A stretch of DNA of 64,000 nucleotides, from the NCBI GenBank assembly GCA_002070965.1, contig MWEH01000202.1, positions 1 to 64,000 on the forward strand, in the 5' to 3' direction. Below are positions 31,841 through 53,706 of the stretch, in pieces. Source of the stretch: Firmicutes bacterium ADurb.Bin080 (lineage in GTDB: Bacteria > Bacillota > Clostridia > Christensenellales > DTU072). The notes below the pieces were generated by a model. The model was given only the letters and a program-made list of their open reading frames with translations, was not told the origin of the DNA and searched no databases. The number at the start of each line of letters is the position of its first letter. Position 1 is the stretch's first letter. The position numbers and the translations under genes are program-made.

Positions 31841-31960
31841 CTTGTATCTCCCGAAAATTATATTTTTTCCCCTTCTTCATCCCTTATTACTTACAACTAG
31901 AAAACAACTAATCGATTTTTGGGGACTTCTACATTCAAAAGAAAACAGTTTTTCCTTTGT

Positions 31961-33310: not shown

Positions 33311-33334
33311 GAAACCTTCCTCTCTTTTTCAATT

Positions 33335-34279: not shown

Positions 34280-34519
34280 ATTTCACCCCTATTATTATCT
34301 TTATATTTTATCATATGTTTTCCTTCATTTATATACCTGTGATCTGGCCCCCAAATTAATAATCCCTTTACCCTTTTTATATAATTTCTGCATAAATCCT
34401 CTAGTTAAAACAAAAAATGTCTATTATTCAATAATGCAGCTCGTCAAGCTATGCCTTTAAAATTGTAAATTTGAAAAAAAGCAGATTTAAAAAAAGTTGG
34501 CTTTACAACCGCCTAAACA

Positions 34520-35662
34520 CTAATTCAGGAGAATTATTGTATATCCATTTTCTGAAATAGTACGAGTATATTCTTTATAAATATGCTCATATGAAGGGGG
34601 ATAATCGGTACAAACAAGCTGTGCTCCGGTATCAAGTCTTGCCTCTGTGGTTTCAAACTCATATTTTGGATATATGTCCAGTCGAGTTCTGACTATATAG
34701 TTTTCTTCTATTAAAGGATCTAGTTTTTCTGGATGGTTGTAATCGTGATCTTGAGCAAAGCAAGTCAGATCTAAATACTTATTTTCTTTTAAACTACTTG
34801 CCCAAACCAAAGGTATCATAACCCTGTTTTCTGCAGGAATATCAATATACTCCTCGAAATTCTCATATTCATGAAGCAAAAATACGAACTTTCCTATACA
34901 ATCTTCCAGTTTGATATATCCATTGGCTTCCCTCATCTCTTGAAAATCCCCAAAGCCATTTAACATTTGAGAATAAGTAATTACTTTATCTGGAAAATAC
35001 TCAAGTATTAAATCATCTAGTGTTTCTAATTCCACCTTTCCCAATCCTTTTGCTTTGTCTAAAGGAACGTTATCTTTAGGCTCTATAGTAATAAAAATCG
35101 GCATATGGTTAGGATTATACTCCGACCACATCTTTATTTCCTCAAGTCCTTTCTCAAAATCAACGACCGAAGAATTAGTTTCTAGCCAAGAATTGTGATA
35201 GCACTCAAACCTATATTCATCTTCATTCTCCGCATAATACAGATCAAACTCAAATCCTCTAATGCCAATATTTAGTTGTTGAGTTATATTGTCGTATCCA
35301 TAATTAGATTTTTTTCCTATCGCATAGGGGATAATATAGTTATAAAAGAACTTGGCGGGATTATGTAAACCCTGTTTGTAACTGTTGTGAGTACATAAAT
35401 ATCTCAGTTGATTTATCTGAATCTGCTCCGTGATAGCTTCCTGAATATTAAACCCACATATCGATTGTTCATCAATCTTTATTGCGGTTTCGTTATCATA
35501 ACTTTCTGCCAATTCTACTATGTGTCCTTCCTGCCATTCAGCAAAAATCTGTCTTTGTTTCTCGGATTCTCCTATCGATATTCCAAAGAATATTGAAGCA
35601 AGCAAAATATATGCAACCAAAATAAACAATAACGATATGCTTACCTTCTTAAAAATCTTCAT
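34520..35662 (-). CDS. Ca2+-dependent phosphoinositide-specific phospholipase C-like
   Basis: 380 residues. An N-terminal hydrophobic segment (about 8-28) acts as signal or anchor. The catalytic barrel has the two histidines in CTHNSYK and CYHNSW, the GIRGFEFDLYY motif with acidic calcium-ligand residues, and FITIEPKD. This is the Ca2+-dependent PI-PLC group (as I recall, PF16670) found in some bacteria. Expected location is the cell surface. Cleavage of phosphoinositide head groups is inferred from the family. Confidence 0.78.
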   Translation of the reverse strand: MKIFKKVSISLLFILVAYILLASIFFGISIGESEKQRQIFAEWQEGHIVELAESYDNETAIKIDEQSICGFNIQEAITEQIQINQLRYLCTHNSYKQGLHNPAKFFYNYIIPYAIGKKSNYGYDNITQQLNIGIRGFEFDLYYAENEDEYRFECYHNSWLETNSSVVDFEKGLEEIKMWSEYNPNHMPIFITIEPKDNVPLDKAKGLGKVELETLDDLILEYFPDKVITYSQMLNGFGDFQEMREANGYIKLEDCIGKFVFLLHEYENFEEYIDIPAENRVMIPLVWASSLKENKYLDLTCFAQDHDYNHPEKLDPLIEENYIVRTRLDIYPKYEFETTEARLDTGAQLVCTDYPPSYEHIYKEYTRTISENGYTIILLN

Positions 35663-35704
35663 ATTAATGCTTGATCTCCCCCCGACTACCTTCTCGAGTA
35701 GTTT

Positions 35705-36010
35705 TTATTCTTCGATAGTCTCGAGTAAAAAACTCACTGGTCTAAATCCATCGTTGCAGGAAATCATGGCTGATTTTTCATTTTTCATCCAACCATCGTA
35801 TATATCCTTTCCCCCATGAGCTAAAGTCATTACAAAAGGAGAAAGGCTATCCCATGCGCTTACACAAAACCCCTCCGGGCGTTCCCATCCATTTGCGATA
35901 AATATTTGTCCTTCTTTCATTTCACAAGCATGGACCATAGGTTTTTCATATTTCTCTATTAGGTCAGTATAGTTTGCTTTTCTTACAACCGTTATCCTAA
36001 TTTTTTTCAT
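35705..36010 (-). CDS. TIGR04076-family small protein
   Basis: 101 residues. The pattern KIRITVVRKANYTDLIEKYE, CEMKEGQIF, then PEGFCVSAWDSLSPFVMTLAHGG and the final SCNDGFRPVSFLLE matches the TIGR04076 family, whose function is unknown. The three cysteines are conserved in that family as I recall it. It is 42 bp upstream of the PI-PLC gene on the same strand. Confidence 0.75.
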   Translation of the reverse strand: MKKIRITVVRKANYTDLIEKYEKPMVHACEMKEGQIFIANGWERPEGFCVSAWDSLSPFVMTLAHGGKDIYDGWMKNEKSAMISCNDGFRPVSFLLETIEE

Positions 36011-36106
36011 TGTCTTCTCCTAATAAAGCTTTCCTCTAATGTAAAATATAGCTATTCAATTTTATATTGTTATCTATAATAAAAACTCTTTTGTATCATA
36101 ATAATA

Positions 36107-37447
36107 TCATATTTTTCTAGTATATCTGCAATCAGGATAATTGCAACAGCCCATAAACCTTCCGTATTGTCCGTTTCGCTCTTTAAGAATCCCGCCACAT
36201 TCTGGGCACACATCGGGACCAACACTTTTTTTTATGGACTCAAACTGAATGTTTTCTACTGTTTTCTCTTCTGGATTATTATAACACTCTTTGCATTTTC
36301 CAAGATTAATGCTATTTTTCCCACCCCACGATAAGAAATCCTTTTCTTTCTTAATTTTCCCGCAATCCTTACACTTTAACCATCTATTCCCTTGGGAATC
36401 GATGACTGGAGTATCCTGCTGCAAGAAACTAGCTTCCTCTATCGGTAGATATTCCTCTTTTTTCACCGTGGCTTTTTTCTCCAAAGAGGCACTTACTTGT
36501 TTCTTTTTTTGCTCTTCTCTTTTCCGCTGCTCTTCCTGCTGTTTTCTCCATTGTTCTTCTATTTCTCTCTGCCTCTCCTCCTGTTGCTTTCTCCATTGTT
36601 CTTCTCTTTCTCTCTGCTGCGCTTCCTGCTGTTTTTTCCTTTCTTTTTCCTCCTCCAACGATCTAACAAAACTACTTCTTTTTTTTGTTACTAAAGAAAT
36701 AAGCGTTTCTCCCGAAAAGCATATTTGCCCTTCATTGTCTATATCAAAATCATTTAGTAACCCAGACACAACAGTGATTTCTTTCCATATTCCGTAATTA
36801 TCTTTTTCATAAAACAACACTTCAAGCTCTGCTTCTTGATAATAAGTTTTTACAGACAATAATAGACAGTATCCTTGCCTTTCTTGAACCTTCATTAAAC
36901 TTTCTGGATACTGACCGTTATTACAACGATTCATCATATCAACGAAATATAAAACACTAAGGCCTACACTATTGTTATCTAAAATGCGTAATTTTTCTTC
37001 GGATAAATTTTGTCTATCCGGGGTATAGGACAAAGCAATCTTTCTAGTTCTTGAAAAAAAGGAAAATTCATATTTCCTGTTTGAATCATCAACTTCACAT
37101 ATTGGAACGCGAGCCTCTATGTCAACCGCGTGCAATTTTTCATCTAACCAACATTTCAAAACTATTCTAGAGAAAATAGACGTCTGGCTCTCGATACTGA
37201 CCTTACATTCGGCTTTGTTTTCCCCCTCAGGCATACGAAAATGCTGTTCCCTTAAGCCTTTATCCCCTGCAACTAATACAAGGTTTGCACCGCAGCCGCA
37301 AGGACAGAACAACTGTTTTGCTCGGCTTTTCGCTCTAAGCTCTTTTAGTTTTATACGATCATTGATTTGCATCCCATTAATGGACGTATATATTGTTTCG
37401 ATTCCAATAATCTTATCGCCCAAAAGAGCCACTGGTCTTTTTACCAT
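36107..37447 (-). CDS. CoiA-like protein with coiled coil and two zinc-ribbon-like modules
   Basis: 446 residues. The N-terminal part resembles the CoiA competence family (LFCPCGCGANLVLVAGDKG, then EQHFRMP). A charged coiled coil at about 270-325 is built from 15-residue units QRE(R/I)EEQWRKQQEE. Next comes a CxxC..CxxC region (WLKCKDCGKI ... GKCKECYNN), and the C-terminus is a topoisomerase-type zinc finger (DVCPECGGILKERNGQYGRFMGC, then CNYPDCRYT). This suggests a nucleic-acid-binding protein. Function is unknown; classical CoiA lacks the Zn ribbon. Confidence 0.7.
   Translation of the reverse strand: MVKRPVALLGDKIIGIETIYTSINGMQINDRIKLKELRAKSRAKQLFCPCGCGANLVLVAGDKGLREQHFRMPEGENKAECKVSIESQTSIFSRIVLKCWLDEKLHAVDIEARVPICEVDDSNRKYEFSFFSRTRKIALSYTPDRQNLSEEKLRILDNNSVGLSVLYFVDMMNRCNNGQYPESLMKVQERQGYCLLLSVKTYYQEAELEVLFYEKDNYGIWKEITVVSGLLNDFDIDNEGQICFSGETLISLVTKKRSSFVRSLEEEKERKKQQEAQQREREEQWRKQQEERQREIEEQWRKQQEEQRKREEQKKKQVSASLEKKATVKKEEYLPIEEASFLQQDTPVIDSQGNRWLKCKDCGKIKKEKDFLSWGGKNSINLGKCKECYNNPEEKTVENIQFESIKKSVGPDVCPECGGILKERNGQYGRFMGCCNYPDCRYTRKI
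36543..36632 (-). repeat. 45-bp tandem coding repeat in the CoiA-like gene
   Basis: Two near-identical 45-bp units, each starting TTTCTCCATTGTTCTTCT on the plus strand (36543 and 36588), with degenerate copies on both sides. They encode the 15-residue coiled-coil units. Confidence 0.7.
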
Positions 37448-37635
37448 ATTGAATTCTCCCCCTCATTTACCGATACATCCTAATCTTATCAAGCTGGATA
37501 ATGATATTATTTCACTTTTATTTTTTGCAAAAAAAGGACTATATTTATATTATAAGACGCTTTTTCTTCCAGTCAATATAAGCATGGTCCACTATTAGGA
37601 CATCTATATATTTCTACGCATTAACTCTCCACGTT

Positions 37636-37670
37636 AAAAAAATACAGCCCCCATATATTATGTTGGCTGT
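37636..37670 (-). terminator. Terminator after the aldo/keto reductase gene
   Basis: Minus-strand ACAGCC (37670-37665) pairs with GGCTGT (37649-37644), followed by ATTTTTTT. The loop is 15 nt and the stem only 6 bp. Confidence 0.5.
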
Positions 37671-37728
37671 TAAATATCTTATTATTTTTTCTTTTTATTC
37701 TTCTTTTTCTAACTATCGGATTTGTTTT

Positions 37729-38841
37729 TTATTCAAAGTGCTTTGATACATCTTTCAGATATTTAATAATTGTTATATGCTGCGGGCAGGAACTCTCACA
37801 TTTACCGCACTCAATGCATTCTGTAGCACTGCAATACTTTTTGGCAAGCTTTTTATATGAAGCTCTATATGTGGTCTGCTTATTTGGAGTCTGCATTGCC
37901 TTGTTATAAATAGTAAAGAATTGGGGAATAGGTATTTTCTTTGGACAACCTTCAATACAGTAACCACACGTTGTGCATGGGACTGTTATTGCCCCATTGA
38001 TAATACTCACAACCTTTTCAATGATAGCTCTTTCCTTCTCGTTGAGTGGCTCAAAGTTTCTCATAAAGGAGATGTTGTCCTGTATTTGCTCGAAATTTGA
38101 CATACCAGACAATACTACCATTACGTTATCAAGAGATGCTGCAAAACGAATTGCCCAACTTGCTATAGATGCATTTGGGTTATAGTCCTTTAATAATTTT
38201 TCCGCCTCGGCAGGAAGATTCGCCAAGGTTCCACCCTTTACCGGTTCCATAACAATGACAGGTTTGCCGTGTTTTACGGCTACCTCATAACACCTGCGTG
38301 ACTGTACACGCGGACTATCCCAATCCAGATAATTAATTTGCAATTGTACAAATTCTACTTCAGGATGTTCTGATAGAATCGTATCTAAAACTTCGGCGTT
38401 ATCATGAAATGAAAAACCTACGTGCTTAATTTTTCCCTCTGCTTTTTTCTGCTGAACAAATGAAAAGCTATCCAATTCCTTAGCAAGCTTGTGGCTTTTA
38501 GCCGTAAGTGAGTGGATTAAATAGTAGTCAAAATACTCTACCCCACATTTTGCCAACTGCTTATTGAAAATAGTCTCCTGTTGTTCTTTATTTCGGATAA
38601 ATGGTGCCATCACGGGTAGCTTGTCTGCTAGTATAAAATCCTCCCGCTTGTACCGATCTACTAAAGCGGTACGTACCGTGGATTCACTTTTAGATAGGTG
38701 ATACATATATGCAGTATCGAAATAGACAAAGCCGTTATCAATAAAATAATCGGTCATTTTCTTGACCATACCTAAACTGATTAGGGTTGGCAGCTTGAAG
38801 TGTACCGGAAGACGCATAAGGCCAAAACCTAATTTTTTCAT
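37729..38841 (-). CDS. Aldo/keto reductase with C-terminal ferredoxin-type 4Fe-4S domain
   Basis: 370 residues. The aldo/keto reductase barrel has the N-terminal GFGLMRLPVHF, the catalytic tyrosine region FDTAYMYH and KREDFILADKLP. The C-terminal part carries two 4Fe-4S cysteine sets: PCTTCGYCIEGCPKKI and CIECGKCESSCPQH. Such fused enzymes are common in anaerobic Firmicutes. GGAGAAC precedes the ATG. It was probably the immediate neighbour of the rlmD 3' end before the island inserted. Confidence 0.92.
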   Translation of the reverse strand: MKKLGFGLMRLPVHFKLPTLISLGMVKKMTDYFIDNGFVYFDTAYMYHLSKSESTVRTALVDRYKREDFILADKLPVMAPFIRNKEQQETIFNKQLAKCGVEYFDYYLIHSLTAKSHKLAKELDSFSFVQQKKAEGKIKHVGFSFHDNAEVLDTILSEHPEVEFVQLQINYLDWDSPRVQSRRCYEVAVKHGKPVIVMEPVKGGTLANLPAEAEKLLKDYNPNASIASWAIRFAASLDNVMVVLSGMSNFEQIQDNISFMRNFEPLNEKERAIIEKVVSIINGAITVPCTTCGYCIEGCPKKIPIPQFFTIYNKAMQTPNKQTTYRASYKKLAKKYCSATECIECGKCESSCPQHITIIKYLKDVSKHFE

Positions 38842-38963
38842 TTTGTTCTCCTTTTTTATTTTTAATTATTGAAAAAATATATATTTCTTTAATAAGCATT
38901 TCATTCAATCTATGTTAAAGACAAATATGCTTTCGTTGGGTAATTTACAACCCCGTGTTTTTC

Positions 38964-38998
38964 TATTTACGCGTCATACAAACTAGAGTTTCAAGGTG
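38964..38998. repeat. attL: displaced original 3' end of rlmD
   Basis: 35 bp matching 53708-53742 at 32 positions, including 14 identical bases AGAGTTTCAAGGTG. On the minus strand it encodes HLETLVCMTRK and a TAG stop (38965-38963), the ending expected for RlmD before insertion. It marks the left border of the island. Confidence 0.85.
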
Positions 38999-39054
38999 TG
39001 TCATAACTACGAAATCTATCCAAAATATAAGACATTTTGTAGTTTCACACCTTG
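38992..39054. repeat. Imperfect inverted repeat at the left island border
   Basis: CAAGGTGTG...AACTAC.AAA (38992-39014) faces TTTGTAGTTTCACACCTTG (39036-39054) across about 20 bp. The left arm overlaps the attL core. The right arm also matches, inverted, a sequence near the right border (53565-53583). These may be recombinase binding sites. Apart from att sequences, the 38842-39205 gap holds no gene. Confidence 0.55.
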
Positions 39055-39149
39055 CGATACAACAAAATCTCCCACATAATGAAATATTAATAGCCTCGTC
39101 TTAAGCTTACCTTCTTATTCTATCATATTTCCAATATTTGCAAAACCAT

Positions 39150-39178
39150 TTGACTAACCCTCTTTATTAAGATAACAT
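39150..39178 (+). promoter_or_regulatory. Promoter of the recombinase gene
   Basis: TTGACT (39150-39155), 17-bp spacer, TAACAT (39173-39178), 27 bp upstream of the recombinase start; TTTGGAGAG then supplies the RBS. Confidence 0.5.
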
Positions 39179-39205
39179 TCCCAAAACATTTGGAGAGCAT
39201 TAATT

Positions 39206-40459
39206 ATGGGAAAGAAAAAAGTTATTACCATTGAACCTACACTAGTTAGAGATAAAGGATCTGAAAACACTAACCTTCGTGTCGCAGCTTGCTGTCGAGT
39301 TTCTACCGACAGCCAAGAGCAAGAAAATAGTTACGAAAACCAACTGACACATTATACCAATCTTATCAATAGTCACCCATCTTGGATAAATGCCGGTATC
39401 TTTGCCGACAAAGGCATAAGTGGAAAATTCAAAAACAAACGCCCTAGTTTTCTCAAAATGATAGCAGCTTGTGAGGCAAAGCAAATTGACCAAATCATTA
39501 CAAAATCAATTTCTCGTTTCGGTCGGAATACGCAGGAGACCGTAGAAATTGTTCGCAAACTTCGTGACCTAAACATTGGCGTATTTTTTGAAAAGGAAAA
39601 CCTGTTTTCTTTGGATTCACGCACTGATTTTATTTTGATGATACTGAGTTCAATAGCTGAGGAAGAATCACGTGACCTATCTACCAATGTAAAGTGGACC
39701 TTTGCAAAACAAGCCTCACAAGGAATCATTATGTCCCCTCATGCATATTTTGGTTATACGGCAAAGGGGAAAGACTTAGTTATCAATTCTAAAAACGCAA
39801 AAATCGTGCGCCTGATTTATGATACTTTCGAGCAGAGAAAAGTGTATCCGCTGTGGCAAAATACTTGGAACAGCAAGGCATACTTTCGCCACATGGTAAT
39901 ATTAAATGGCATTATTCTACCGTCCGAATTATTCTTACTAACGAGGCATATATTGGAGATATTATTCTTCAAAAAACTTTTACTAATGACTTCCTTTCGA
40001 AACGAAAAAAGAGTAACGGCGAACGAAAAAAGTGGTATGTAAAAAAACCACCACCCCGCTATCATTACTCGAGAACAATTTGCCAGAGTACAGCAACTCC
40101 ATTTTGACAATAAGGAAACCAATAAGCGAACAAAAACCTTTACTAAATTTCCATTTTCCTGTTTACTCGTTTGCGCTAATTGCGGACGGCATTATATGCA
40201 TGCCGCGTATGTGATTGGTGAAAAGAAAATACCTTATTGGATTTGTCTATCGGTCAAACACTATAAGGAGGTTGGCTGTACCTCGCCCGTTATAAAGGAA
40301 TACATACTAAATCGTGCATACCTATCTATTTCTCCCGACAATTCATTATCCACCTTTCGTGACAAAGTTGAAAAGGTTGTGATAGATAAAATGCTCGCAA
40401 CATATTTTTTTTATTCTGGTGAAGTGGTCAAACTTGATTTGACTAAATTCAAAGAATAG
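39206..40459 (+). pseudogene. Serine recombinase (island integrase), frameshifted
   Basis: Site-specific serine recombinase of about 417 residues when the frames are joined. The first frame (to about 39830) holds the resolvase catalytic domain with the serine in CCRVSTDSQEQ and the ISRFGRNTQETVE motif. The second frame (about 39832-40044) holds the recombinase DNA-binding domain (SVSAVAKYLEQQGILSPHG ... NEAYIGDII). The third, back in the first frame (about 40046-40459), holds the zinc ribbon (LVCANCGRHYMHA ... GC). One base is lost near 39830 and one gained in an A7 run at 40041-40047, so the net frame is restored. Either inactivation or sequence error; it is adjacent to attL, as expected for the integrase. 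Confidence 0.85.
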
Positions 40460-40594
40460 GGTCTGTGTCGTATTTTTGTTACACTATATACTCTGTATTG
40501 TGGTACTCGTTTTATAATTATCGCTTTTTGTAATGCGAGGCACCTTAACATTTCTAAAAATATTACTTTAATTGTTTGTAATTAAAATAAATTG

Positions 40595-42865
40595 TCAGCA
40601 AAAATTATAATCATTAAGCATCAAACTGTTCGGTTTAATCCTAAAACCTTTTGCAATCTTAACACTGCCACCGACACTAGAATCAAAGTAGCCATTAAAA
40701 TACATCTCGGCTTTCATAAGATTATATTGGCTATCAATGATATAGGTTTCGTAAATATCTACCATACCTGTAGTGCACGATGTAGACCCTTTGCGAACAA
40801 GGTATCCATAAAATCCATTTCGTCCTCCTTTAGCAATAATTGCTTCACCATTAAGCCCTTCCATTTCTGGTATAATTTCTATTGCCTTATTAGCAATTAA
40901 CATCCTACCTTTTAGCGACCCCATTGGACTATCTTTTGAAAAACCACAACCGGTATATATCACTTTTTCTTTCGGCATAGTATCAAGTTTCTTTAGTATG
41001 TAGCGAATAAAATCACAATAAGGCATATTTATATTGACCATTTCTGTTTTCAATCCGATAATAAAATGATATGCTGCCTTAATGTATTCCCCTTGATATG
41101 AGTAAATAGTACCCATTAGAATATTCATATCTCCCCATTGTTTTAGCCAAGAAACATATTTTTCGTTCTTTATGTTCGGAGTTGGCATTTGAGCCTTTGC
41201 CCAATCAAAAAAACCAATTGTCATGTCATAAGCTTTATTCAAATCTTTGTCTATACCATAACCTCCGAAAATGTTTCCGAAAATTAGCATGCAACTTTCT
41301 TGCCAAGACAATTGACTTTGATTCGTGCCATTGAGGTTAGACAAGTCAAGCGGTTTAACTTTCCCCATTAAAATTGAAGCATCAAAATAAGGATGTACCT
41401 CTTGATGCTTAGCAAAAATATTTTCGTTCATTGGCATGCCCATAAGTCCAATCATTGTGTCCGTGTCATATGATTCAACTTCTTCCTCGTACTCGGATTC
41501 ATCATCTTCGTCAACAGCGAAACTTAAGAAAACGTTCTTTATCAATGTTTTTATTTCACCTATGCTAAGTTTTTTATTTTTTGCCAAATTTTTTACTTCA
41601 TCTTGTACGGCAGCACATAAATCTGTTGGTTTGCGAGTAATACAACAAAAACATTTCCCTATTAGTAAATCGATGTCTTTACTGTCATAAATAAGCTTAT
41701 TTTTGTTCGTTGCCGTTATTTCATCAATCAAGTTAATAATTGATTCACAACACTCTTTATGCCACTCATCATCAAAAAAATCATCCCCAAAATCTATAGG
41801 CAGATTATCAAAAAACTCTTGAAATTTGCTATAATCAATTGAAAATGATACATTGTCAAAAATCTCATCTTCAAAACTATCAAAATCTCCAATTTCAATA
41901 AATCCCATAGTAAAAATAAAATCTATAAATTGATTGCGTTTTTCACGCTCCCACTTCAATTTCGTTAGTATGGTATTTACATCATTTGTTCCTTGTCTAA
42001 AAAGTGTTGCGATAATTTCAGCGTCTTCTTCACTAACAGAAAATTCTTCAACTCTTTTATCATAATTGTCATCTTTAAACAAACTTTTCATTAAATCATC
42101 AATATCTTCTTTTGTTTTTGAACTTTTCTTTTTCTTTAACGTTGCAGATGCAACCGCTGATATCTTTTTCGCTTTTGGATTATATTTCGCCAATGCTTTT
42201 TCCATAGAATCCGTAATATCGAAAAAATTTGTTGATGTTTCGCCGTGAGTAATACTTGAATTGTCTGGGTTGACCTCACATAATTCACCTTTACCATATC
42301 CAAACTGATTTGTTCCACTTGATGTTCTCATTGCAACTAAATATCTTCTTGTCTTTCCGTCACTACTTAATGCCAAGATGATATATAAGCAATCACTTTG
42401 TTTTTCAGCGATGCATTCTAAAAATGTGAGCAACCAACCTGCAGTTGCTTCATGTTCAAAAGAAACGTTAATAAGTGCATTCTCACAATCATCATCACTT
42501 TCATCTACTGCCTTTTGGTGCAACTCGTTATATATTTCTTCTATAGTTTCGCTATCTTCATTTTCTATTGCTTTTGTAATCTCGCCATCAATGTCATCGA
42601 AAAATCTTTGTGGTAAAGTTTCAAGTTGAACTTCTATATTTATATTGTTTTGTTCGCCAAAGCTTCTGTTTGATATTGTGTTGCTGACTCTATTCTGCTC
42701 AGAAAAACTGTCGTTAGCAACAGTCGCCCTTAACATCTCAACAATTTTATTAGCCTCATCATCTATGTTATTCGATTGTGAAAATGTTTTTTGTAGTTCA
42801 CCAGATTTAACATTTGAATTAAAATGTATTCCACCAGTCAAAAAACCAACTGCACCGCCATACAT
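40595..42865 (-). CDS. Large acidic protein of unknown function (island cassette)
   Basis: 756 residues; family not recognised. It is strongly acidic, with an Asp/Glu cluster around DEDDESEYEEEVESYDTD (about residues 475-492) and a possible winged-helix-like stretch SEEDAEIIATLFRQGTNDV (about 279-297). A C-terminal part around DKDLNKAYDMTIGFFDWAKAQ vaguely recalls Sel1-like helical repeats. No nuclease or NTPase motif is visible. The start overlaps the upstream XRE-like gene by 28 bp in another frame; the first residues MYGGAVGFLTGG have no good RBS, so a frameshift joining the two is possible. Last gene of the island transcript. Confidence 0.7.
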   Translation of the reverse strand: MYGGAVGFLTGGIHFNSNVKSGELQKTFSQSNNIDDEANKIVEMLRATVANDSFSEQNRVSNTISNRSFGEQNNINIEVQLETLPQRFFDDIDGEITKAIENEDSETIEEIYNELHQKAVDESDDDCENALINVSFEHEATAGWLLTFLECIAEKQSDCLYIILALSSDGKTRRYLVAMRTSSGTNQFGYGKGELCEVNPDNSSITHGETSTNFFDITDSMEKALAKYNPKAKKISAVASATLKKKKSSKTKEDIDDLMKSLFKDDNYDKRVEEFSVSEEDAEIIATLFRQGTNDVNTILTKLKWEREKRNQFIDFIFTMGFIEIGDFDSFEDEIFDNVSFSIDYSKFQEFFDNLPIDFGDDFFDDEWHKECCESIINLIDEITATNKNKLIYDSKDIDLLIGKCFCCITRKPTDLCAAVQDEVKNLAKNKKLSIGEIKTLIKNVFLSFAVDEDDESEYEEEVESYDTDTMIGLMGMPMNENIFAKHQEVHPYFDASILMGKVKPLDLSNLNGTNQSQLSWQESCMLIFGNIFGGYGIDKDLNKAYDMTIGFFDWAKAQMPTPNIKNEKYVSWLKQWGDMNILMGTIYSYQGEYIKAAYHFIIGLKTEMVNINMPYCDFIRYILKKLDTMPKEKVIYTGCGFSKDSPMGSLKGRMLIANKAIEIIPEMEGLNGEAIIAKGGRNGFYGYLVRKGSTSCTTGMVDIYETYIIDSQYNLMKAEMYFNGYFDSSVGGSVKIAKGFRIKPNSLMLNDYNFC

Positions 42866-43305
42866 TGCTTTAGTTCAATCCCATTTTTCTCGGCAAAATT
42901 AAATAGTTCTTTTCTGATTCTTATTCCGATTTCGCCTTCCTCTGTGCTCCTTGCCGGGTCTAAATCAAGTTGCATGAGTAATGTCAGCAGATACCGGGTA
43001 TACCAATTTGCTGCTATGTGCTTTTTCATGGGCGATAGCACTTTTGTTTGCTGCATGTTTGCCATTTCTAAAAACACATTGTCGTCAATTTCATCCCCGT
43101 TTGAATAAACTGCCAGCATTCTGTAAAGACGCATTCCCATAGGAGGGTATACCTTATCCTCTTCAAGGTCGGAAATATACAACTCCGTCTCATTTAGTTT
43201 TGCGGCAACTTCGGCAACCGTAAGTCGTAATATTTCACGAATCCCTCTCATCAATTCGCCGAAAGTATTTGCTTTAATTCCGCTGATAAAAAACTTCTTT
43301 TTCAT
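42838..43305 (-). CDS. XRE-like helix-turn-helix protein (island cassette)
   Basis: 155 residues. An N-terminal helix-turn-helix of XRE type is suggested by FGELMRGIREILRLTVAEVAAKLNETELYISDLEEDK (split over about residues 15-51), followed by a helical domain. It shares a TAATG stop/start with the upstream sigma-like gene, so translation is probably coupled. Its last codons overlap the 756-residue gene; the natural product could be a longer fused protein. Confidence 0.7.
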   Translation of the reverse strand: MKKKFFISGIKANTFGELMRGIREILRLTVAEVAAKLNETELYISDLEEDKVYPPMGMRLYRMLAVYSNGDEIDDNVFLEMANMQQTKVLSPMKKHIAANWYTRYLLTLLMQLDLDPARSTEEGEIGIRIRKELFNFAEKNGIELKQCMAVQLVF

Positions 43306-44102
43306 TACCTAAGTCCTCCGTTATAGAACATAATCTTATCCTTCCACGGATTAATTTCGCTCCAAAAGTCATCATACAGCTCTTTCGAGGGAGAAAGTTT
43401 TATATTAAAAATCATCATGTTTTTTCTTGCTGCCTCCAATGACTCACTGATACTCGCCGCACTTGTACCGCCCTCCGCATTGGATATATCTACAACGCGC
43501 ATATTTTCATAATGATATTGATAATAACGTTTTGCCTGCTTTTTGGGAAGCGTGTTCTCTAAAGTTATCTTAACCTCAGCAAGATGTTTTTCATGAAATT
43601 TCAGCGTAATCTTCTCACATTCAAGCCGAGCTTCTTTTATGATCAGTGGTATTGGCATTGTCCTGCTATCCGGCAGGGTTGCACATTGCCCGTCTGTCTC
43701 GTCATAGTCCTCGTTGCCGCCGGCATCTTCAATGTTCCAATCATTAGGAAATTTGTGTCTGTATTCCGAACGCGTATGTTTACGGTTATTCTTCTTTTCA
43801 TATTCGTCAAAATCTTTTATTATAGCGGCTGCCTTGGGCGAAAGTTTTAGCTTTGTTATTAATTCCTCTTCTACAGACCCATATGTATATTCCTCTAATT
43901 TGTGTTTTTGCGGGTCAAAGCAGTCTGAGAATATCAGCCGCGCCGTTTCAATATCTCCGCCGACAGCTGCAAATTTATCTATAAATTCCTTCGTGCGCTT
44001 TTTCGCATCGTCCCTTTCAAATTTCTTAAAACGTTTAGCATCCTCAATTTCATTTTTTATTACTGCATACTCATCGGCAAAAGAAAGCACAAGGTTTCTC
44101 AC
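43305..44102 (-). CDS. Protein with sigma-region-4-like HTH (island cassette), probably 5'-truncated call
   Basis: The 265-residue frame starts at a GTG with no usable RBS. The C-terminal part (ITLENTLPKKQAKRYYQYHY ... DISNAEGGTSAASISESLEAARKN) resembles the sigma-70 region 4 or transposon-type sigma-like helix-turn-helix. The middle is a charged helical region. The frame is open upstream to 44204 and encodes a coiled coil (ENQQAVNELQLSRHSVKVFKQL), continuing the sense of the small ORF at 44177-44314. A one-base deletion near 44191-44205 would explain the split; the joined protein would be about 336 residues. Confidence 0.65.
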   Translation of the reverse strand: MRNLVLSFADEYAVIKNEIEDAKRFKKFERDDAKKRTKEFIDKFAAVGGDIETARLIFSDCFDPQKHKLEEYTYGSVEEELITKLKLSPKAAAIIKDFDEYEKKNNRKHTRSEYRHKFPNDWNIEDAGGNEDYDETDGQCATLPDSRTMPIPLIIKEARLECEKITLKFHEKHLAEVKITLENTLPKKQAKRYYQYHYENMRVVDISNAEGGTSAASISESLEAARKNMMIFNIKLSPSKELYDDFWSEINPWKDKIMFYNGGLR

Positions 44103-44176
44103 CTCTTCAAATTCTGGAGCGTCAAAAAACAGCTGTTTGAATACTTTAACGCTATGCCGAGAAAGCTGCAGTTCGT

Positions 44177-44314
44177 TTACAGCTTGTTGATTTTCTTCTT
44201 TAATCTACGGAACTCGGCAATAATCGCCGCCTCGTCCTTAATATCAACGGGCGGTCGTTTTAGCGGTGAAGGTTCACTTCTTTCGGTTAAGTTGTCTTTT
44301 ATGCTGTTGTCCAT
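44177..44314 (-). CDS. Small ORF, probably the 5' part of the sigma-like gene
   Basis: 45 codons from ATG (44314) to TAA (44177). The sequence ends EFRRLKKKINKL; in the -1 frame the same DNA reads on as EENQQAVNELQ, which continues the helix better. Too short to judge alone. It may be the true N-terminus of the gene at 43305-44102. Confidence 0.5.
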   Translation of the reverse strand: MDNSIKDNLTERSEPSPLKRPPVDIKDEAAIIAEFRRLKKKINKL

Positions 44315-44374
44315 ATCTATGCAATTACCTTTTCATTGCTTTGTCATCGCTAGAATTTCTGAACTGTTGATTTC

Positions 44375-45412
44375 TTATCGCTTACAATATCTGGCGAACG
44401 AGTATTCAAAAATAATATCTGCTTTTACGCTTTTCCAAAATTGCCACTCCGTTGCAGTGCTTTTTGTAATCTTTCCTAATTTCCATTGTGCGACAGTTTC
44501 ATTGTTTTCTGTAATGTGCTGCGGTATCCTTTCGCCTTTTTGATATAGTGCTATCAGTTTAGTGTATTCGCTATCGTATTCAACAAACATAGCATATGCT
44601 TTTTGAGCATCGCTTGTCACTATCGCAAATGCTGTAATGTTCTTTGCTTCAAAGAACGGAATATGCACCCACTCGTCTTTTTTCTTTATCAACTTGTCCC
44701 AAGCGGAGTCAATGTCAATCAGAAAAATATACCTAATTTCAATTTCCTTTTCTAACACTGGCGCATTTTTCAATATGTCAAGCAATTTAGAACTACCTGC
44801 AATTATCCCACTTTGGTAATCTATATCGTCGCCGTAAAGCTCGAAGTCATTTGCATCCAATTCCTCGTTCAGTATGTTTTCCGCCTGCTCTATCGATTCC
44901 AAAATCCCTGTTATGGGTTTTATATCGCTTAATCCGTATGCTTTTCCGAGTGCGTAAAAGTCGATTGTCAGCAATTCGTCAATAACGATTTCCGCTAAAG
45001 CTCTTTGCAGTATTTTTTCAAGCTTGACTATATCATAAAATGGTGTAGCTATATTCTTTTTTCTTTTCATCTCGGGAGCGTCTTCCCAATCGTCGCTTGG
45101 AAAAAGCTTATATGCTGTTATCATGCCGTCTATATCCACCTCGCAAAGCTCTTTCAGCCTTTTTGAAACTTTGCAATACACAATCTCTATTGCATCGGGA
45201 ATTATGTCGTATAATTCACTTTCCTTAATTTGCAATTCCAAAATGTCCTGTTGCATCTCCGCCTTATTACTTGCAATATGTCCGAGTGAAAACCGCGTTA
45301 ATAAAAACTCCTCGACAAGCGAAAAATCCTTTGACACTCGCATGACCTTATAAAAACTATCAGCTGTTTCAATAACGCAAACTTTTCTTGGTTGTGTTCT
45401 TTTTTTGGGCAT
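44375..45412 (-). CDS. Uncharacterised 345-residue protein (island cassette)
   Basis: No family recognised. The protein has a basic start (MPKKRTQPRKV), is otherwise acidic, and is predicted soluble. The C-terminal half (RYIFLIDIDSAWDKLIKKK, then FFEAKNITAFAIVTSDAQKAY) looks like an alternating beta/alpha fold. An RBS AGGAGGGTG precedes the ATG. It lies 58 bp after the HEXXH gene and on the same strand as the whole hsd operon. Confidence 0.65.
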   Translation of the reverse strand: MPKKRTQPRKVCVIETADSFYKVMRVSKDFSLVEEFLLTRFSLGHIASNKAEMQQDILELQIKESELYDIIPDAIEIVYCKVSKRLKELCEVDIDGMITAYKLFPSDDWEDAPEMKRKKNIATPFYDIVKLEKILQRALAEIVIDELLTIDFYALGKAYGLSDIKPITGILESIEQAENILNEELDANDFELYGDDIDYQSGIIAGSSKLLDILKNAPVLEKEIEIRYIFLIDIDSAWDKLIKKKDEWVHIPFFEAKNITAFAIVTSDAQKAYAMFVEYDSEYTKLIALYQKGERIPQHITENNETVAQWKLGKITKSTATEWQFWKSVKADIIFEYSFARYCKR

Positions 45413-45470
45413 ATTTCACCCTCCTTTAATTACATGTTATCTCCTGTCCCAGATCTATAATCGGCAATAT

Positions 45471-46193
45471 TCAAGAGCCAAAAAAGATACTCTTGTCATG
45501 GTAATATAGTGCGTTAACAATACTATCGAACACAACCGGTCCAACAGTAAGCTTTTGTTTAACTTTTTCGAAGATGTTCTTGTCCTCATCGCTTATGTTC
45601 TTCTCATAAAGCATTGTATCGGTTTTTGCCCAGCCGCTTATATGCATAGCCAGCCTTTCCGTCAACACCTCGTCCAGCCATTCATCCACTTTCCATTTTT
45701 TGCTGGATAACTTCTCCACAGGGTTAGCCGTATTTTCCTCAGCGCACAATCCGACTGTCCAGCTAATGGGTTTATCCTTATCGCCGGTATATTCATACTC
45801 TGTAAAAGCATAATGAATCAACTCGTGCGCAATAATATGCCTTAGGCGGTTTTTATCATCTATAAGATTTAGCAAATATGGCACTTTATCTCCAAAAACA
45901 ATCGGTTCAACATATTTATTAATAACAATTTCATTGTCTTCCGGACAAAAAACGCCGCCGCAATGGTCTGTATTATCTTTATCAATATTAACTGCAATTT
46001 TCAATTCATTGCTACTATGATTGTTGGGATAATCGTAAAAAGACTCCCGAAGTGCCTTTCTTAAGCGCCTATCTGCCCATTTATATGCACGCTCCACCAC
46101 CCGCATCGCTCGGCAAATTTCCGCCCACGATTCTTTTGTCTCAGGCAGATTAGTATAAAAGTTTATTGAGTATTCTTTCTCGCTTTTCTTCAT
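45471..46193 (-). CDS. HEXXH zinc-metalloprotease-like protein (island cassette)
   Basis: 240 residues. The zinc-binding signature HELIH is at 123-127 (IIAHELIHYAFTEYEY), with a candidate third ligand in EWLDEVLTERLA about 50 residues later, a gluzincin-like arrangement. The rest is unlike proteases I know, though ImmA/IrrE-type regulators of mobile elements use a similar core. It starts 41 bp after hsdR. A role in activating neighbouring XRE or sigma-like proteins by cleavage is speculation from context. Confidence 0.7.
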   Translation of the reverse strand: MKKSEKEYSINFYTNLPETKESWAEICRAMRVVERAYKWADRRLRKALRESFYDYPNNHSSNELKIAVNIDKDNTDHCGGVFCPEDNEIVINKYVEPIVFGDKVPYLLNLIDDKNRLRHIIAHELIHYAFTEYEYTGDKDKPISWTVGLCAEENTANPVEKLSSKKWKVDEWLDEVLTERLAMHISGWAKTDTMLYEKNISDEDKNIFEKVKQKLTVGPVVFDSIVNALYYHDKSIFFGS

Positions 46194-46234
46194 GTAAAAT
46201 CTTATTTCAGTTAATAATTTCCATTCTATATGAG

Positions 46235-49200
46235 CTACTTATCCTCTGTCCAAAAGTCGGCGAGACTTTTTGCTTGCTCTAAGACGGTTTGGATTGCTTT
46301 TTCTTTCTTGTCGGGCGGGTAGCCGTATTTTGTTAAGATTCGGCGGACATAGACCATAATTTGCGCCCGCGCCGATTCTTTTATCGTCCAGTCTATCGTT
46401 GCGCTGCTTCTTATCTTTCCTGCAAGATCACGGGCAATTGTGCGGAGTATGTCGTCACCCAAAATCTTGACTGCGCTGTCGTTAGTTTCGAGCGCGTCAT
46501 AAAAAGCAAGCTCATCGTTTGATAGCCCCATTTTATCGCCGCGTTCTTTTGCCTCACGGATTTTTTTGGCAACTTCCAAAAGTTCTGCGATGATTTCCGC
46601 TGTCGTCAACAAGTTGTTTTGATACTTCTTGACGGCGTTGTCGAGCATCTCCATCAGAGTTTTTGCCTGCGACAAATTATGCTTATTTGCGAGACGGATT
46701 TCATCGGCAAGTATCTTTTTTAATAGTTCTATTGCGACATTCTTATACTTCATACCTGCAATCTCTGCCAAAAACTCTTCGCTCAAGACAGAAATTTCGG
46801 GCTTAGCAAGTCCAGCAGCATCGAATATATCTATAACCTCGTCACTTTTTATTGACGAGTCAATTATATTGCGTATAACCGATTCATAATCGCTGCCACC
46901 GCCCGCGCCGCGCTCAAACTTTGTAAGCCGCGCCTTAACTGCTTGGAAAAACGCTATTTCCTCCGCGCTGGAAAGAGCGGTAGGATCGGGTACGGCAAGC
47001 GCGTAAGCCTGCCCTAGAAGCCCTACTTCACGCAGATATCGTTCTTTGATTTTGTCACTTTTAAGAATAAAATCTTCGGTCTGCAAAATAATAGAAAGCT
47101 TATTTCGTATATCGGCGGTAAAAAATTCTTTATACTTAAATCCGTTGAGGATATCTCTGACAACACCGAGTTTTTCTATCATCACATGTACGGCTTTATC
47201 CTGCATATCAGCGGGAACTCCTTTGCCTCCGCTCTCTGCGTAAAATTGTAAAGCCTTTTTTAGATTGGTAGCGATGCCTATGTAGTCGACAATCAAGCCG
47301 CCGGGTTTATCCTTAAAAACACGGTTTACTCGCGCTATCGCCTGCATAAGGTTATGCTCTTTCATTGGTTTGTCCACATACATGGTATTAAGACAAGGCG
47401 CGTCAAACCCTGTAAGCCACATATCCCTTACAATGACAATTTTTAATGGGTCGCTCTCATCCTTTATTCTCTCGGCTAAAGCTTTGCGCTCTCCCTTCGT
47501 TGTATGATGCTTTGCAATCTCCGCCCCGTCTGCGCTCGTGGAAGTCATTACGACTTTTATCGTTCCTTTGTCAAGGTCGTCAGAATGCCAATTGGGACGA
47601 AGATTTGTAATTTCTTTATATAACAGCGCGGCAATACGGCGGCTCATACAAACAATCATAGCCTTTCCGTTGAACACCTCTTGCCGTTTCTCATAATGCG
47701 TGACAATATCTTTGGCAAGCGCCTTTATGCGATCAATGTTACCGACAATCGCCTCCAGCTTCGCCCACTTGATTTTTGCCTTTTGCGCCTCGCTCTGCTC
47801 GCCGTCGTCCTCAATAATACCTTTGTCGAACTCATCTATAAGCAGCTTACCTTCCTCTGTAAGGTTGACTTTTGCAAGCCGTGATTCATAATAAATCTTG
47901 ACCGTTATTTTGTCGCTTTCAGCGCTTGCTATGTCGTATATGTCCACATAATCGCCAAAAATTGCCGAAGTGTTGGCATCCTTCTTTTCTATGGGTGTAC
48001 CAGTAAAACCGATAAAGGTTGCATGCGGCAACGCATCACGGACATATTGGGCAAAGCCGTAGACCGTCCGCTTACCGATTACCTCTTTGTTCTCATCCTT
48101 GACATCCTGTAGTCTTGCCTTAAAACCGTATTGTGTACGGTGCGCCTCATCTGCTATGACAATAATATTTTCACGCTCGGATAACCGTTCAAAGGTTGCC
48201 GTTGCTCCTTCTTTATCGGGCGAGAACTTTTGTATGGTCGAGAACACCACACCCCCGCTGGCTACCTTGAGAAGCCTTTTAAGGGAATAAGGGCTGTCTC
48301 CCTCCGTGCTGTCTGCCTGAACAGGTATTTGTCGAAGTAATCCGCTATTCCCTGCAAAGGTATCGAACAGCTGATCGTCAAGGTCGTTGCGGTCTGTTAT
48401 CACAAGTATTGTAGGATTATTTAGCCCCTGTATAATCTTGCCGGCATAGAACACCATTGAAAGCGATTTGCCGCTCCCTTGGGTATGCCAAACCACGCCG
48501 CCTTTTTTGTTGCCGCCACTTGCCGCCGCCACCGTAGAGGCTACCGCTTTGTTTACGGCATAATACTGGTGATAAGCCGCAATCTTCTTTGCGGTTTCCA
48601 CTCTGATGATTTTGGTTACCTTATCTTCGACTTTGGTCTTTTCAAAAGTGATGAAATTGCGTATATAATCAAGCAAGGTATTAGGGCTCAGCAGACCGTG
48701 AATAATCGTTGTCAGCTCGTCTTCGAACTTGCCCGCTTCCGTCAAGCCGTCCTTTGTTTTCCAGGTAGAATACCGAGAAAAGCCTGCGGTAAGCGAACCG
48801 GCTTTTGCTTCCAGTCCGTCGGATATGATATTTATTTCGTTGTAGGTAAACAGCGAAGGGATAGTTGCCTTGTAGGTTCCTATCTGGTCGTACGCCTTCC
48901 TTACCGTTGCGTTCTCATCGGCAGGATTCTTTAACTCGAACAGCACCAAAGGCATGCCGTTAACAAAAATCAAGATGTCTGGTCTTTTGTTTTTGTGGTT
49001 TTCTATAATAGTAAATTGATTGACTGAGAGAAAGTCATTGTCTTTCACTTTCGCAGGGTCGAACTCTATAAGCCTTGCATAATCGTTTTTTATCTCGCCG
49101 CTCTTTCTGTATTCTACGGGGACGCCGTCTATCAGCAGATTATGAAACATCTCGTTGTCAAAAACGGTATTGCCCGTGCCAATATTGCGTACAACTTTTA

Positions 49201-49417
49201 CCGCCTCGGCTACCGCGTCTTCGGGCAGGTGAGGATTGAGCCTTCTTACCGCCGCCGCAAGCCTTTTGAGAAGCAGCACCTCTGAAAAGTCGCCCCTTTC
49301 GGGTGTCGCCCCGTCGGGCGCAAGGTCGGGACCCGCCGCATATTGATAGCCCAATATGCCCAGCTCCTCAATCGTCATTTTTTCTATTTCGGATTCATAA
49401 ATGCTTGGTTTCCTCAT
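46235..49417 (-). CDS. hsdR: Type I restriction enzyme subunit R
   Basis: Motor and nuclease subunit of a type I system, 1060 residues. The N-terminal PD-(D/E)xK nuclease is complete: D147, ELK at 161-163 and the QxxxY motif at 178-182. The translocase has Walker A HTQGSGKS at 311-318, the DEAH box in VIADEAHRTQYG and the FTGTPIEKKD motif. The C-terminal helical part is present, so it looks intact. GGATGGGG precedes the ATG, 14 bp after hsdS. Confidence 0.95.
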   Translation of the reverse strand: MRKPSIYESEIEKMTIEELGILGYQYAAGPDLAPDGATPERGDFSEVLLLKRLAAAVRRLNPHLPEDAVAEAVKVVRNIGTGNTVFDNEMFHNLLIDGVPVEYRKSGEIKNDYARLIEFDPAKVKDNDFLSVNQFTIIENHKNKRPDILIFVNGMPLVLFELKNPADENATVRKAYDQIGTYKATIPSLFTYNEINIISDGLEAKAGSLTAGFSRYSTWKTKDGLTEAGKFEDELTTIIHGLLSPNTLLDYIRNFITFEKTKVEDKVTKIIRVETAKKIAAYHQYYAVNKAVASTVAAASGGNKKGGVVWHTQGSGKSLSMVFYAGKIIQGLNNPTILVITDRNDLDDQLFDTFAGNSGLLRQIPVQADSTEGDSPYSLKRLLKVASGGVVFSTIQKFSPDKEGATATFERLSERENIIVIADEAHRTQYGFKARLQDVKDENKEVIGKRTVYGFAQYVRDALPHATFIGFTGTPIEKKDANTSAIFGDYVDIYDIASAESDKITVKIYYESRLAKVNLTEEGKLLIDEFDKGIIEDDGEQSEAQKAKIKWAKLEAIVGNIDRIKALAKDIVTHYEKRQEVFNGKAMIVCMSRRIAALLYKEITNLRPNWHSDDLDKGTIKVVMTSTSADGAEIAKHHTTKGERKALAERIKDESDPLKIVIVRDMWLTGFDAPCLNTMYVDKPMKEHNLMQAIARVNRVFKDKPGGLIVDYIGIATNLKKALQFYAESGGKGVPADMQDKAVHVMIEKLGVVRDILNGFKYKEFFTADIRNKLSIILQTEDFILKSDKIKERYLREVGLLGQAYALAVPDPTALSSAEEIAFFQAVKARLTKFERGAGGGSDYESVIRNIIDSSIKSDEVIDIFDAAGLAKPEISVLSEEFLAEIAGMKYKNVAIELLKKILADEIRLANKHNLSQAKTLMEMLDNAVKKYQNNLLTTAEIIAELLEVAKKIREAKERGDKMGLSNDELAFYDALETNDSAVKILGDDILRTIARDLAGKIRSSATIDWTIKESARAQIMVYVRRILTKYGYPPDKKEKAIQTVLEQAKSLADFWTEDK

Positions 49418-49431
49418 AGTTTCCCCATCCT

Positions 49432-50571
49432 TTATACCGTCACACGCACTTCGCCGCTAATCAATTTCGGCAATAACGTATCGCGCAGTTTTTTGAGTGT
49501 GTTTAATTGTTTTGCATTGCCATGTATCTTTTCAAACAACGGCGCAACAATATCGTTGAATTTTTTAAGCAAATTATTGGGTGGAATAGCAAGTGTTATT
49601 TCACCAAACAATGTTGTGTTTATGTTTAATGTCATTGTTCCACCACTACCCAATGCTTGCAACTCTTCATAATAACTTTTTAAAAAAAGAAATAGAAAAT
49701 ACCTAGTTGCATTTTCAAATGGAATAATAGTATTGATTTGCTGATTTGTCTGACTTGGGTATACATTCATCGTCACTAAGCCGACCGTTGCAATACAACT
49801 TACATTAATAGAAAATGGGGGCACTGTCTTATTCGCTTGACTTCTTGCCCCGAATTCACTTAATGTTTCATTCGCATCAAATACATAAACCTTATTATGC
49901 ATATCAGGAATTTTTATGAATGGTATATTTCCTCCAAAGTACTGGGTAACTTTGGTTGATGGTGTTTTTCCGCAAACAATTTTACCTAGTTTATTAAGCT
50001 GCTTTTCCTCCCAATCGTCGTTTGCTTCCTCAATAAACCATTGGCGAAAATAGGTTGACGCTAAGGCTTCAAGGGTTTTGTTCTGCCTGGAGAGCAAATC
50101 TATTTTGTCGTCAAGCGATGACAAAACCTCTGCGATTGCTTTTTGTTCAGGTAGGGGTGGATACATAATTTTCAAATTAGCTATGTCTTTATAATTAACA
50201 CAACCAAAAACAGTTCCATTTTGATTATTTATTAGTTCTTTCGAATAATGCCTTATTAAGTAATATAAAAACTCTTGTTCGTTTTGATTATGATTTAGTG
50301 AGCAAACTCCTCTACCTAAGCACATCTTAATAGGGGTTATATTAACATCTCCGACGGGTGCACGAACACTCATTATTACATCGTAAGGCTCTGCAATCTT
50401 CGTTACAACATTTGTATATGTATCAAAAGTTGGATATTTTGCACCAAAAGTTCGATTTCCTTGCAAAAAAGGAAGTCCTTGTTTTTCATAATTGTAATGT
50501 TCTGATTTTGGGGATTGCCCCATATTGATTTTACAAATATCTCCAAGCGTTGTATCTCTCCACTCACTCAT
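49432..50571 (-). CDS. hsdS: Type I restriction enzyme specificity subunit S
   Basis: 379 residues with the two-half layout: target-recognition domain 1 (about 1-140), conserved helix (PLPEQKAIAEVLSSLDDKIDLL), target-recognition domain 2 (about 190-335, beginning WEEKQLNKLGKIVCGKTPS) and a second helix (IPPNNLLKKFNDIVAPLFEKI). The recognition sequence cannot be inferred. It overlaps rhuM by 8 bp. Base composition of this gene is visibly richer in A+T than hsdR and hsdM, as often seen for exchanged specificity genes. Confidence 0.92.
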   Translation of the reverse strand: MSEWRDTTLGDICKINMGQSPKSEHYNYEKQGLPFLQGNRTFGAKYPTFDTYTNVVTKIAEPYDVIMSVRAPVGDVNITPIKMCLGRGVCSLNHNQNEQEFLYYLIRHYSKELINNQNGTVFGCVNYKDIANLKIMYPPLPEQKAIAEVLSSLDDKIDLLSRQNKTLEALASTYFRQWFIEEANDDWEEKQLNKLGKIVCGKTPSTKVTQYFGGNIPFIKIPDMHNKVYVFDANETLSEFGARSQANKTVPPFSINVSCIATVGLVTMNVYPSQTNQQINTIIPFENATRYFLFLFLKSYYEELQALGSGGTMTLNINTTLFGEITLAIPPNNLLKKFNDIVAPLFEKIHGNAKQLNTLKKLRDTLLPKLISGEVRVTV

Positions 50572-51583
50572 TGCCGCCGCCTCCGCTTGTAAGTTTCTTC
50601 TGCATTTGTTTGAGCGTTTCCAGATAAGCTTTTTCTACTTCGGTAAGCTCATCAGCGGTTTGCGCTTTGTAGAGGGTATATTCGCTGTGCGCTTTTTGTG
50701 TTGCGGCTTCGTGCGTTACGGTACCGCTGCCCTCCAATATCCCCATGCCAAAATCGCGCGAAAACTTATCTAGGGTATGCAGCCAGTCGCGCATATACAT
50801 CGGCTCTTCTCTTTCGGCTTTCAGTTCCGCCATATCAAAAAAGGCGTTTACCATACGGCGCAGGGCAAAAAGCTCTTTTTCTGTCATATAATTCTTGGCG
50901 ATTGTTACTTCACTCTTTGTGGGGCGGTTGCCCTTAAACGCCGTCAATCCCATAAAGGGCAGCGTCGCATTGGCTCGGTCAAAAACGATTTCGCTTGCCG
51001 TTTTTCCGCTTGCTGCATAATGGAATTTATTCTGAATGATTTTGAAAAACTCGTAGGTCTCGGGCATAGAAGCGTTATAATCGAGGCTTGTTGCGTAAAG
51101 GTCTAGTATTTGACGGTACATGACTTTTTCGCTTGCGCGTATGTCGCGTATCCGCTCTAACAGCTCTTTCCAATAAACGCCGCCGCCCATGTTTTTTAAG
51201 AAGTCGTCGTTCATCGCAAAGCCTTTTTGCAAATATTCGTGCAAAACGCCCGTTGCCCACTGCCTGAACTGTGTACCTCTGGGTGATTTTACTCGGTAGC
51301 CCACGGCAATAATGACATCCAAATTATAATGCTGTATATTCCTAGAAATCTCTCTGTTGCCCTCTTTTTGAACTGTCAAGTATTCCTTGACAGTTGCTGC
51401 AGGGTCTAGCTCTTGCTCATCAAATATTTTTTTGATATGCAAGCTTATGTTTTGTTTGGTTGTTTGAAACAAATCTACCATTTGCGCCTGTGTAAGCCAA
51501 AGTGTTTTTTCGCCCATGCGCACATCTATTTTTACCTTACCGTCTTTGGACTGATAGATAATTATCTGCGATTCTTTTTTCAT
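50564..51583 (-). CDS. RhuM-family protein
   Basis: 339 residues. The N-terminal region ([26 protein letters not shown] split across about residues 29-54, then [33 protein letters not shown]) is the RhuM signature. The C-terminal part includes [17 protein letters not shown]. RhuM-like genes often sit inside type I R-M operons; their role is unclear, though a regulatory or toxin role has been suggested. Its start overlaps the hsdM stop by 4 bp. Confidence 0.88.
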
Positions 51584-53184: not shown

Positions 53185-53264
53185 TATGTTTTTCTCCCGT
53201 TATTCTGTCAATCCTTCTGCCGCCACATAAGCAGGTCAATAACTGTATATATTTCTACCTAGGT

Positions 53265-53459
53265 TTATTTATCGTCAAACTTTATACCTTTCTTTTGGCA
53301 AAACTCATCAAACTTGCGCCTCTCCAAAAACTGCGGTTCGTTGCGTCCTTTTTCCCATCTGTTTATCGTTGAAAAGGCAACACCTAGCTCTGCTGCAAGC
53401 TGAGCTTGTGTCAACTTTAATTGCCCTCTGACTTCTTGTACTTTTTCGCTGAATGTCAT
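53265..53459 (-). CDS. Small XRE-family regulator of the R-M operon
   Basis: 64 residues, little more than a Cro/CI helix-turn-helix (LKLTQAQLAAELGVAFSTINRWEKG) with a basic tail. The ATG at 53459 has AGAGGTGG; an upstream TTG-type start at 53477 lacks spacing. It is the first gene of the island operon, directly upstream of hsdM. In R-M systems such proteins delay or balance expression of restriction. Confidence 0.85.
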   Translation of the reverse strand: MTFSEKVQEVRGQLKLTQAQLAAELGVAFSTINRWEKGRNEPQFLERRKFDEFCQKKGIKFDDK

Positions 53460-53564
53460 TTTACCACCTCTAAGCAAACTATCTTATATTATAGCATAAT
53501 TTCCTTAAATTTCAACCCCTATCCTTAAGTTTGATATGTTCTAACCACACGACTAACGGTGTTA

Positions 53565-53583
53565 GGGTTGAAACTACAATATG
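53565..53583. repeat. Right copy of the island-end inverted repeat
   Basis: The reverse complement of this 19-bp segment matches 39033-39051 at 16 positions, including TTGTAGTTTCA. It lies about 160 bp inside the right border. The surrounding gap 53478-53706 has no gene. Confidence 0.5.
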
Positions 53584-53706
53584 TTTTTAGAGTTTTAGGT
53601 CTTATTTCAAAACTCACATTTGTAATAGTTTTATATGATATTATTTAATTGAATCAATAAAAACCAATAAAATAGGCATAAAAGCATCATAAAAGCTGTA
53701 TTTTGC

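Follow-up and report, generated by a model that had tools for sequence, protein, structure and literature searches.

Streptococcal ICEs with a serine integrase target rumA, the gene of a 23S rRNA uracil-5 methylase, and leave direct repeats behind (PMC4701971). SCC cassettes likewise combine a serine recombinase with the 3' end of an rRNA methylase gene, rlmH, as integration site, and they carry type I restriction-modification (R-M) cargo. Two further systems pair a protease with an HTH protein. ICEBs1 and its relatives hold the HEXXH protein ImmA and the HTH protein ImmR in one mobile element (PMC6540685), and CapP/CapH regulate immune operons (Lau et al., 2022, as cited in PMC13373217).

We compared these systems with a locus in a 64,000-nucleotide stretch of a contig from Firmicutes bacterium ADurb.Bin080 (hereafter the window), in which a first-pass annotation had proposed an undescribed defence system of five genes, here termed A to E, behind a type I R-M operon. 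Our preferred reading, to which we give a probability of roughly 60%, is that these genes supply cargo and control functions at the left-hand side of a 14.8-kb site-specific island that occupies the 3' end of rlmD/rumA; they would not be a defence system of five genes standing by itself. What had been suspected to be new defence genes would in that case become part of a mobile island whose limits and target site are defined. The case also illustrates that position beside an R-M operon does not by itself make neighbouring genes a defence system.

A proposed island at the 3' end of rlmD

The ends of the proposed island, its recombinase and the R-M operon are as follows:

38964–38998: distal att-like direct repeat, 32 of 35 positions identical to the rlmD 3' end, reading HLETLVCMTRK-stop
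39206–40459, plus strand: large serine recombinase, Ccr-like (Resolvase PF00239, 97.5 bits), with two frame changes
46235–53184, minus strand: type I R-M operon
46235–49417, minus strand: hsdR
49432–50571, minus strand: hsdS
50564–51583, minus strand: RhuM (Virulence_RhuM, PADLOC candidate PDC-S05)
51580–53184, minus strand: hsdM
53708–53742: rlmD-side att-like repeat, the last rlmD codons, reading HLETLVCIKRK-stop
53707–55053, minus strand: rlmD/rumA, the target gene, 23S rRNA uracil-5 methylase family (PF05958, TRAM)

The locus lies between two copies of a 35-nt direct repeat with three mismatches, one of which forms the 3' end of rlmD; over the 18.5 kb that were examined, chance alone would give about 2 × 10^-7 such pairs. 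The recombinase gene is located near one end, starting 207 bp inside the left repeat. On the basis of the direct repeats, the serine recombinase and the precedent of rumA-targeting ICEs, we delimit a putative island of 14.8 kb (38964–53742) carrying hsdM, RhuM, hsdS, hsdR and genes A–E. The interval 40595–46193, initially treated as a unit, does hold the five genes, but the natural unit is this larger one.

Like the streptococcal rumA ICEs, which use a single serine integrase (PMC4701971), the island occupies the 3' end of a rumA/rlmD-family gene and has a recombinase at one end and short direct repeats; an altered C-terminus of the target protein is plausible, as in those elements. In contrast to them, its repeat precedes the recombinase gene instead of lying inside it, the recombinase is broken, and conjugation genes are absent from the open frames listed for the 14.8 kb: of those with 80 aa or more that lie between the repeats, the main ones of which were assigned, none resembles a relaxase or type IV secretion gene. 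The frame breaks in the recombinase gene, and possibly that in gene C, suggest that the island is no longer mobile. The resemblance to SCC cassettes extends to the serine recombinase, for which CcrB was the best NCBIfam match, to the rRNA-methylase 3' end and to the type I R-M cargo. However, CcrB scored 85 bits against a cut-off of 900 (three Ccr models gave 85, 62, and 55 bits against cut-offs of 900, 700, and 900), and the target is rlmD/rumA rather than rlmH. Relatives of the recombinase occur in phages. Searches with Rfam gave no match in 36000–56000.

The repeats and the recombinase gene are present in the sequence, and the event to which they point is one in which the large serine recombinase would have integrated the island at rlmD, after which both sides carried a copy of that gene's 3' end. 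The defence cargo would then be the R-M operon with RhuM.

Beyond the left repeat, the window contains about 14 kb of genes (24850–38963) between the island and a set of ABC genes, including an aldo/keto reductase, a phospholipase-C-like protein, a reductase, sdaA, and others. A sister species from the same genus has a genome 1 Mb smaller and lacks these genes at that place; the aldo/keto reductase gene is absent from it. Also just outside the island, at 36107–37447, is the gene of a 446-aa protein whose N-terminus is weakly CoiA-like; a long charged coil follows, and the protein ends in a topoisomerase-type zinc ribbon.

Frames, composition and relatives of the five genes

Genes A–E, listed here in their order from hsdR, have the following coordinates:

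45471–46193, minus strand: gene A, 240 aa, HELIH at residues 123–127, putative zinc metalloprotease
44375–45412, minus strand: gene B, 345-aa orphan
43305–44102 as listed (265 aa), or 43305–44315 including an upstream frame, minus strand: gene C, sigma-region-4-like C-terminus
42838–43305, minus strand: gene D, 155 aa, weakly XRE/HTH_3-like regulator, start overlapping the stop of C
40595–42865, minus strand: gene E, acidic orphan of 756 aa with an uncertain start and a composition that differs from A–D

Re-examination confirmed five closely spaced or overlapping open frames on the strand of hsdR, as first described, and the HEXXH motif reported for one of them is the HELIH of gene A. Gaps measure 41 nt between hsdR and A, 58 nt between A and B, and approximately 59 nt between B and an ATG near 44315, while C and D overlap at TAATG. 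In 300 replicates of 5.6 kb of Markov-matched sequence, the longest open frame had a median of 123 aa and a maximum of 256 aa. The frames of B and E far exceed these chance lengths and those of A and D fall within the range. We nevertheless regard A as a real gene because it is conserved in the sister species, and D because a GGAGG ribosome site precedes it and its start runs into the end of C. Good ribosome sites were found for B, where the site is strong (AAAGGAGGGTG), and for D, but not for A or E.

Third-position GC content (GC3) was 0.39–0.42 for A–D, 0.26 for E, 0.50 for hsdR, hsdM and RhuM, and about 0.31 for the flanking genes (most 0.27–0.37). This pattern is consistent with A–D, which could share one origin, having a history distinct from those of E and the R-M operon, and we count the shared GC3 of A–D in favour of the island reading. 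Gene E looks separately acquired, given its GC3 and a first ATG that lies inside D and lacks a ribosome site, features that also make its start uncertain.

Profile and sequence searches of Pfam, NCBIfam, PHROGs, PADLOC and PDB with A–E returned nothing above cut-off. In line with the first-pass annotation, none of the five proteins reached the cut-off of a defence family. Matches of E to "biuret hydrolase" and CTD11 were rejected as noise. AlphaFold models built without relatives had a mean pLDDT of 34 for A and 32 for B, too poor for a fold search.

Relatives were correspondingly scarce. Gene B had none in 58 related genomes or 391 genomes of the class, except for one match that we attribute to chance, as it sits in a dehydrogenase gene (genome G241, locus L002), and none in a scan of 85k genomes by exact-word patterns, which are blind to distant relatives. 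No relative of E was found in 245 genomes of the class and 40 of the family, and scans of viral contigs, phages and plasmids revealed no relatives. Within the genomes searched, no second occurrence of B, D or E came to light, and the loci of 20 related hsdR genes (the closest 71% identical) had other cargo downstream and none of the five genes. Because A occurs in the sister species without an R-M operon and without B–E, co-occurrence fails; this is the outcome that the first-pass annotation had named as refuting its proposal, and within the limits of sampling a single five-gene system is not supported. The few relatives of A, B, D and E reflect sparse sampling of the lineage as much as novelty. 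Taken together, A–E look like poorly conserved passenger and control genes, as opposed to a conserved new defence system.

A narrower possibility is that B, E or both constitute an unrecognised one- or two-gene defence effector beside the R-M operon. Their position in an R-M island and lack of a known family are compatible with this, as is the long, acidic and intact frame of E. However, position alone is weak evidence, and searches that covered about 290 to 450 genomes, phages or plasmids gave no relative of B or E; we consider an effector of this kind quite unlikely. If the island reading is correct, B and E would be orphan cargo.

Among the related R-M loci, the placement of a RhuM-family gene between hsdM and hsdS is repeated in one (L045, genome G333) with an hsdR 51% identical to that of the window. 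The closest hsdR relative, at 71% (L044, 9414–16990, genome G278), is followed by two genes, one for a 938-aa protein and one for a DEAD-type helicase of 1587 aa, which may be a further defence module occupying the same position.

Gene A in the window and in the sister species

Gene A encodes a conserved WLDEVLTE motif at residues 172–179, some 50 residues past HELIH, and all residues of both motifs are kept in the A protein of the sister species. This arrangement suggests that A is a zinc protease with glutamate as third ligand. Scores were 14.2 and 15.6 bits with SprT-like models (cut-off 25.6) and 18.3 with DUF5700 (cut-off 25). Peptidase_M78, the ImmA/IrrE family, was not listed for A at E-values up to 5, nor for the sister protein at E-values up to 1.

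The sister protein is 62–63% identical to A (locus L067, contig JAAZLE010000014.1, i.e., that of G002:C44) and was the sole relative among the matches listed in a genome scan, for which A was aligned with four made-up variants to broaden the motif patterns. Within the family, A was present in 2 of 40 genomes, those of the window and the sister species; it was absent from the 37 genomes outside the genus and from one of the three within it. No A gene was detected among 391 genomes sampled across the class, apart from the window's own.

In the sister species, A starts 13 nt past rlmD, with no R-M operon between them, which favours the island reading. There, the order is rlmD–A–ABC transporter, recovered as ancestral by synteny; no R-M, recombinase or B–E relative was found within 20 kb, and no repeats were detectable. 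In the window, by comparison, rlmD and A are separated by the R-M operon, and A and the ABC genes by about 20 kb. The same observations also speak against the island reading, since A is located between the repeats here yet adjoins rlmD with no detectable repeats in the sister species, so that A may belong to the resident genes of this genus.

An alternative built on this point gives A a private role as an ordinary resident gene with linkage to rlmD; the R-M operon would have been inserted between rlmD and A, and B–E would be unrelated later arrivals, with no functional link among the five genes. Beyond the ancestral adjacency, such a history would account for the identity of A between the two species (63%), which is near that of rlmD (57–58%) and of the set of rlmD, GH38 and msrA as a whole (57–60%). 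It sits less well with the location of A inside the 35-nt repeats, its absence from the 37 family genomes outside the genus and from one of the three within it, and its GC3, which matches that of B–D. Moreover, third-position divergence between window and sister was 0.47 for A, lower than the 0.56–0.63 of its neighbours, as would fit exchange of the gene once the two species had separated. These values are compatible with either exchange of A between species or a resident gene under different constraint. We judge this alternative unlikely and retain the island as the preferred reading. The leader before A was compared with the rlmD end of the sister species in search of a third att-like remnant, which would have marked the R-M operon as a separate cassette. 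The similarity was not significant (p = 0.15, or 0.83 without the ribosome-site part); no remnant is claimed, and the result counts against the island reading.

Putative regulators and the question of a protease-gated circuit

Gene C contains a frame break: a 44-codon frame from near 44315 joins the C frame only via a -1 shift near 44195, and the present start of C is probably an internal GTG near 44090–44102. Although C itself has no Pfam match, its residues 195–260 matched eight small proteins in the 391 genomes of the Clostridia class, and those of these relatives that were scanned match Sigma70_r4 or r4_2, with one score exceeding the cut-off. The earlier label "sigma-region-4-like" holds for the C-terminal ~65 residues of C and not for the rest. 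The label "XRE-like" for D has a basis in a weak HTH_3 match, although its 15.1 bits fall below the Pfam cut-off of 23. D matched the XRE proteins near the relatives of C very weakly, and had no relatives in the other two genomes of the genus. A PADLOC match of C to "Specificity_I" (17.3 bits) was rejected as noise.

Five of the eight loci with C relatives have, within 1.5 kb, a serine recombinase 41–43% identical to that of the island, and four of these five also have an XRE gene; a tyrosine integrase adjoins the match in two others. Like the island, modules in other Clostridia (loci L005, L006, L008, L009, and L012) place an XRE protein, a small sigma-region-4 protein and a large serine recombinase within a few kb. 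Based on these sets in mobile elements, C and D are most likely mobile-element regulators of island genes or of excision. A first-pass hint at mobile-element control agrees with the island ends, the serine recombinase and these neighbourhoods. There are differences from the compared elements: C has a long extra N-terminal part, and gene order and strands differ. That C and D are opposite in strand to the recombinase, with E between, counts against the island reading. In this setting, the most likely use of A would be to inactivate a regulator such as D.

In a more specific proposal, A and D would be a protease and a repressor that work as a pair, as in CapP/CapH or ImmA/ImmR, to turn on an operon (B, C and perhaps E) after DNA damage or infection, the whole being a regulated defence module beside the R-M operon. 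Such pairs govern ICEs (PMC6540685) and adjacent immune operons (PMC13373217). Here, too, a HELIH protein and an HTH-like protein occur in one mobile element and beside a defence operon; A, B, C and D are close together; and the PADLOC models gave marginal scores, capP 12.7 bits for A (E = 0.016) and capH 16.8 bits for D (E = 0.0026). However, these scores are at noise level and the sister A has no capP match. Furthermore, A is not adjacent to D, as B and C lie between them, and the sister protease occurs without any D relative. A further difference from CapP/CapH is the upstream position of the R-M operon, over which no control is obvious. Since the SprT-like, DUF5700 and capP models score under their cut-offs or within noise, and the listed matches do not include Peptidase_M78, action of A in the manner of ImmA/ImmR or CapP/CapH is an analogy only. 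We regard the pair as improbable.

Bolder still, A–D might form an undescribed protease-gated regulatory operon on rlmD-homing islands, in which A, from a HEXXH family that has no name so far, would either cut D or be activated by it, and would free the sigma-like C to switch on the R-M operon, B or E during phage attack. We think this very unlikely; if true, the A–D circuit would join control of the element and restriction on one island.

As a minor observation, the frame break in C (44181–44315) falls at an A-rich run, AAAGAAGAAAATC, where a programmed -1 frameshift is possible.
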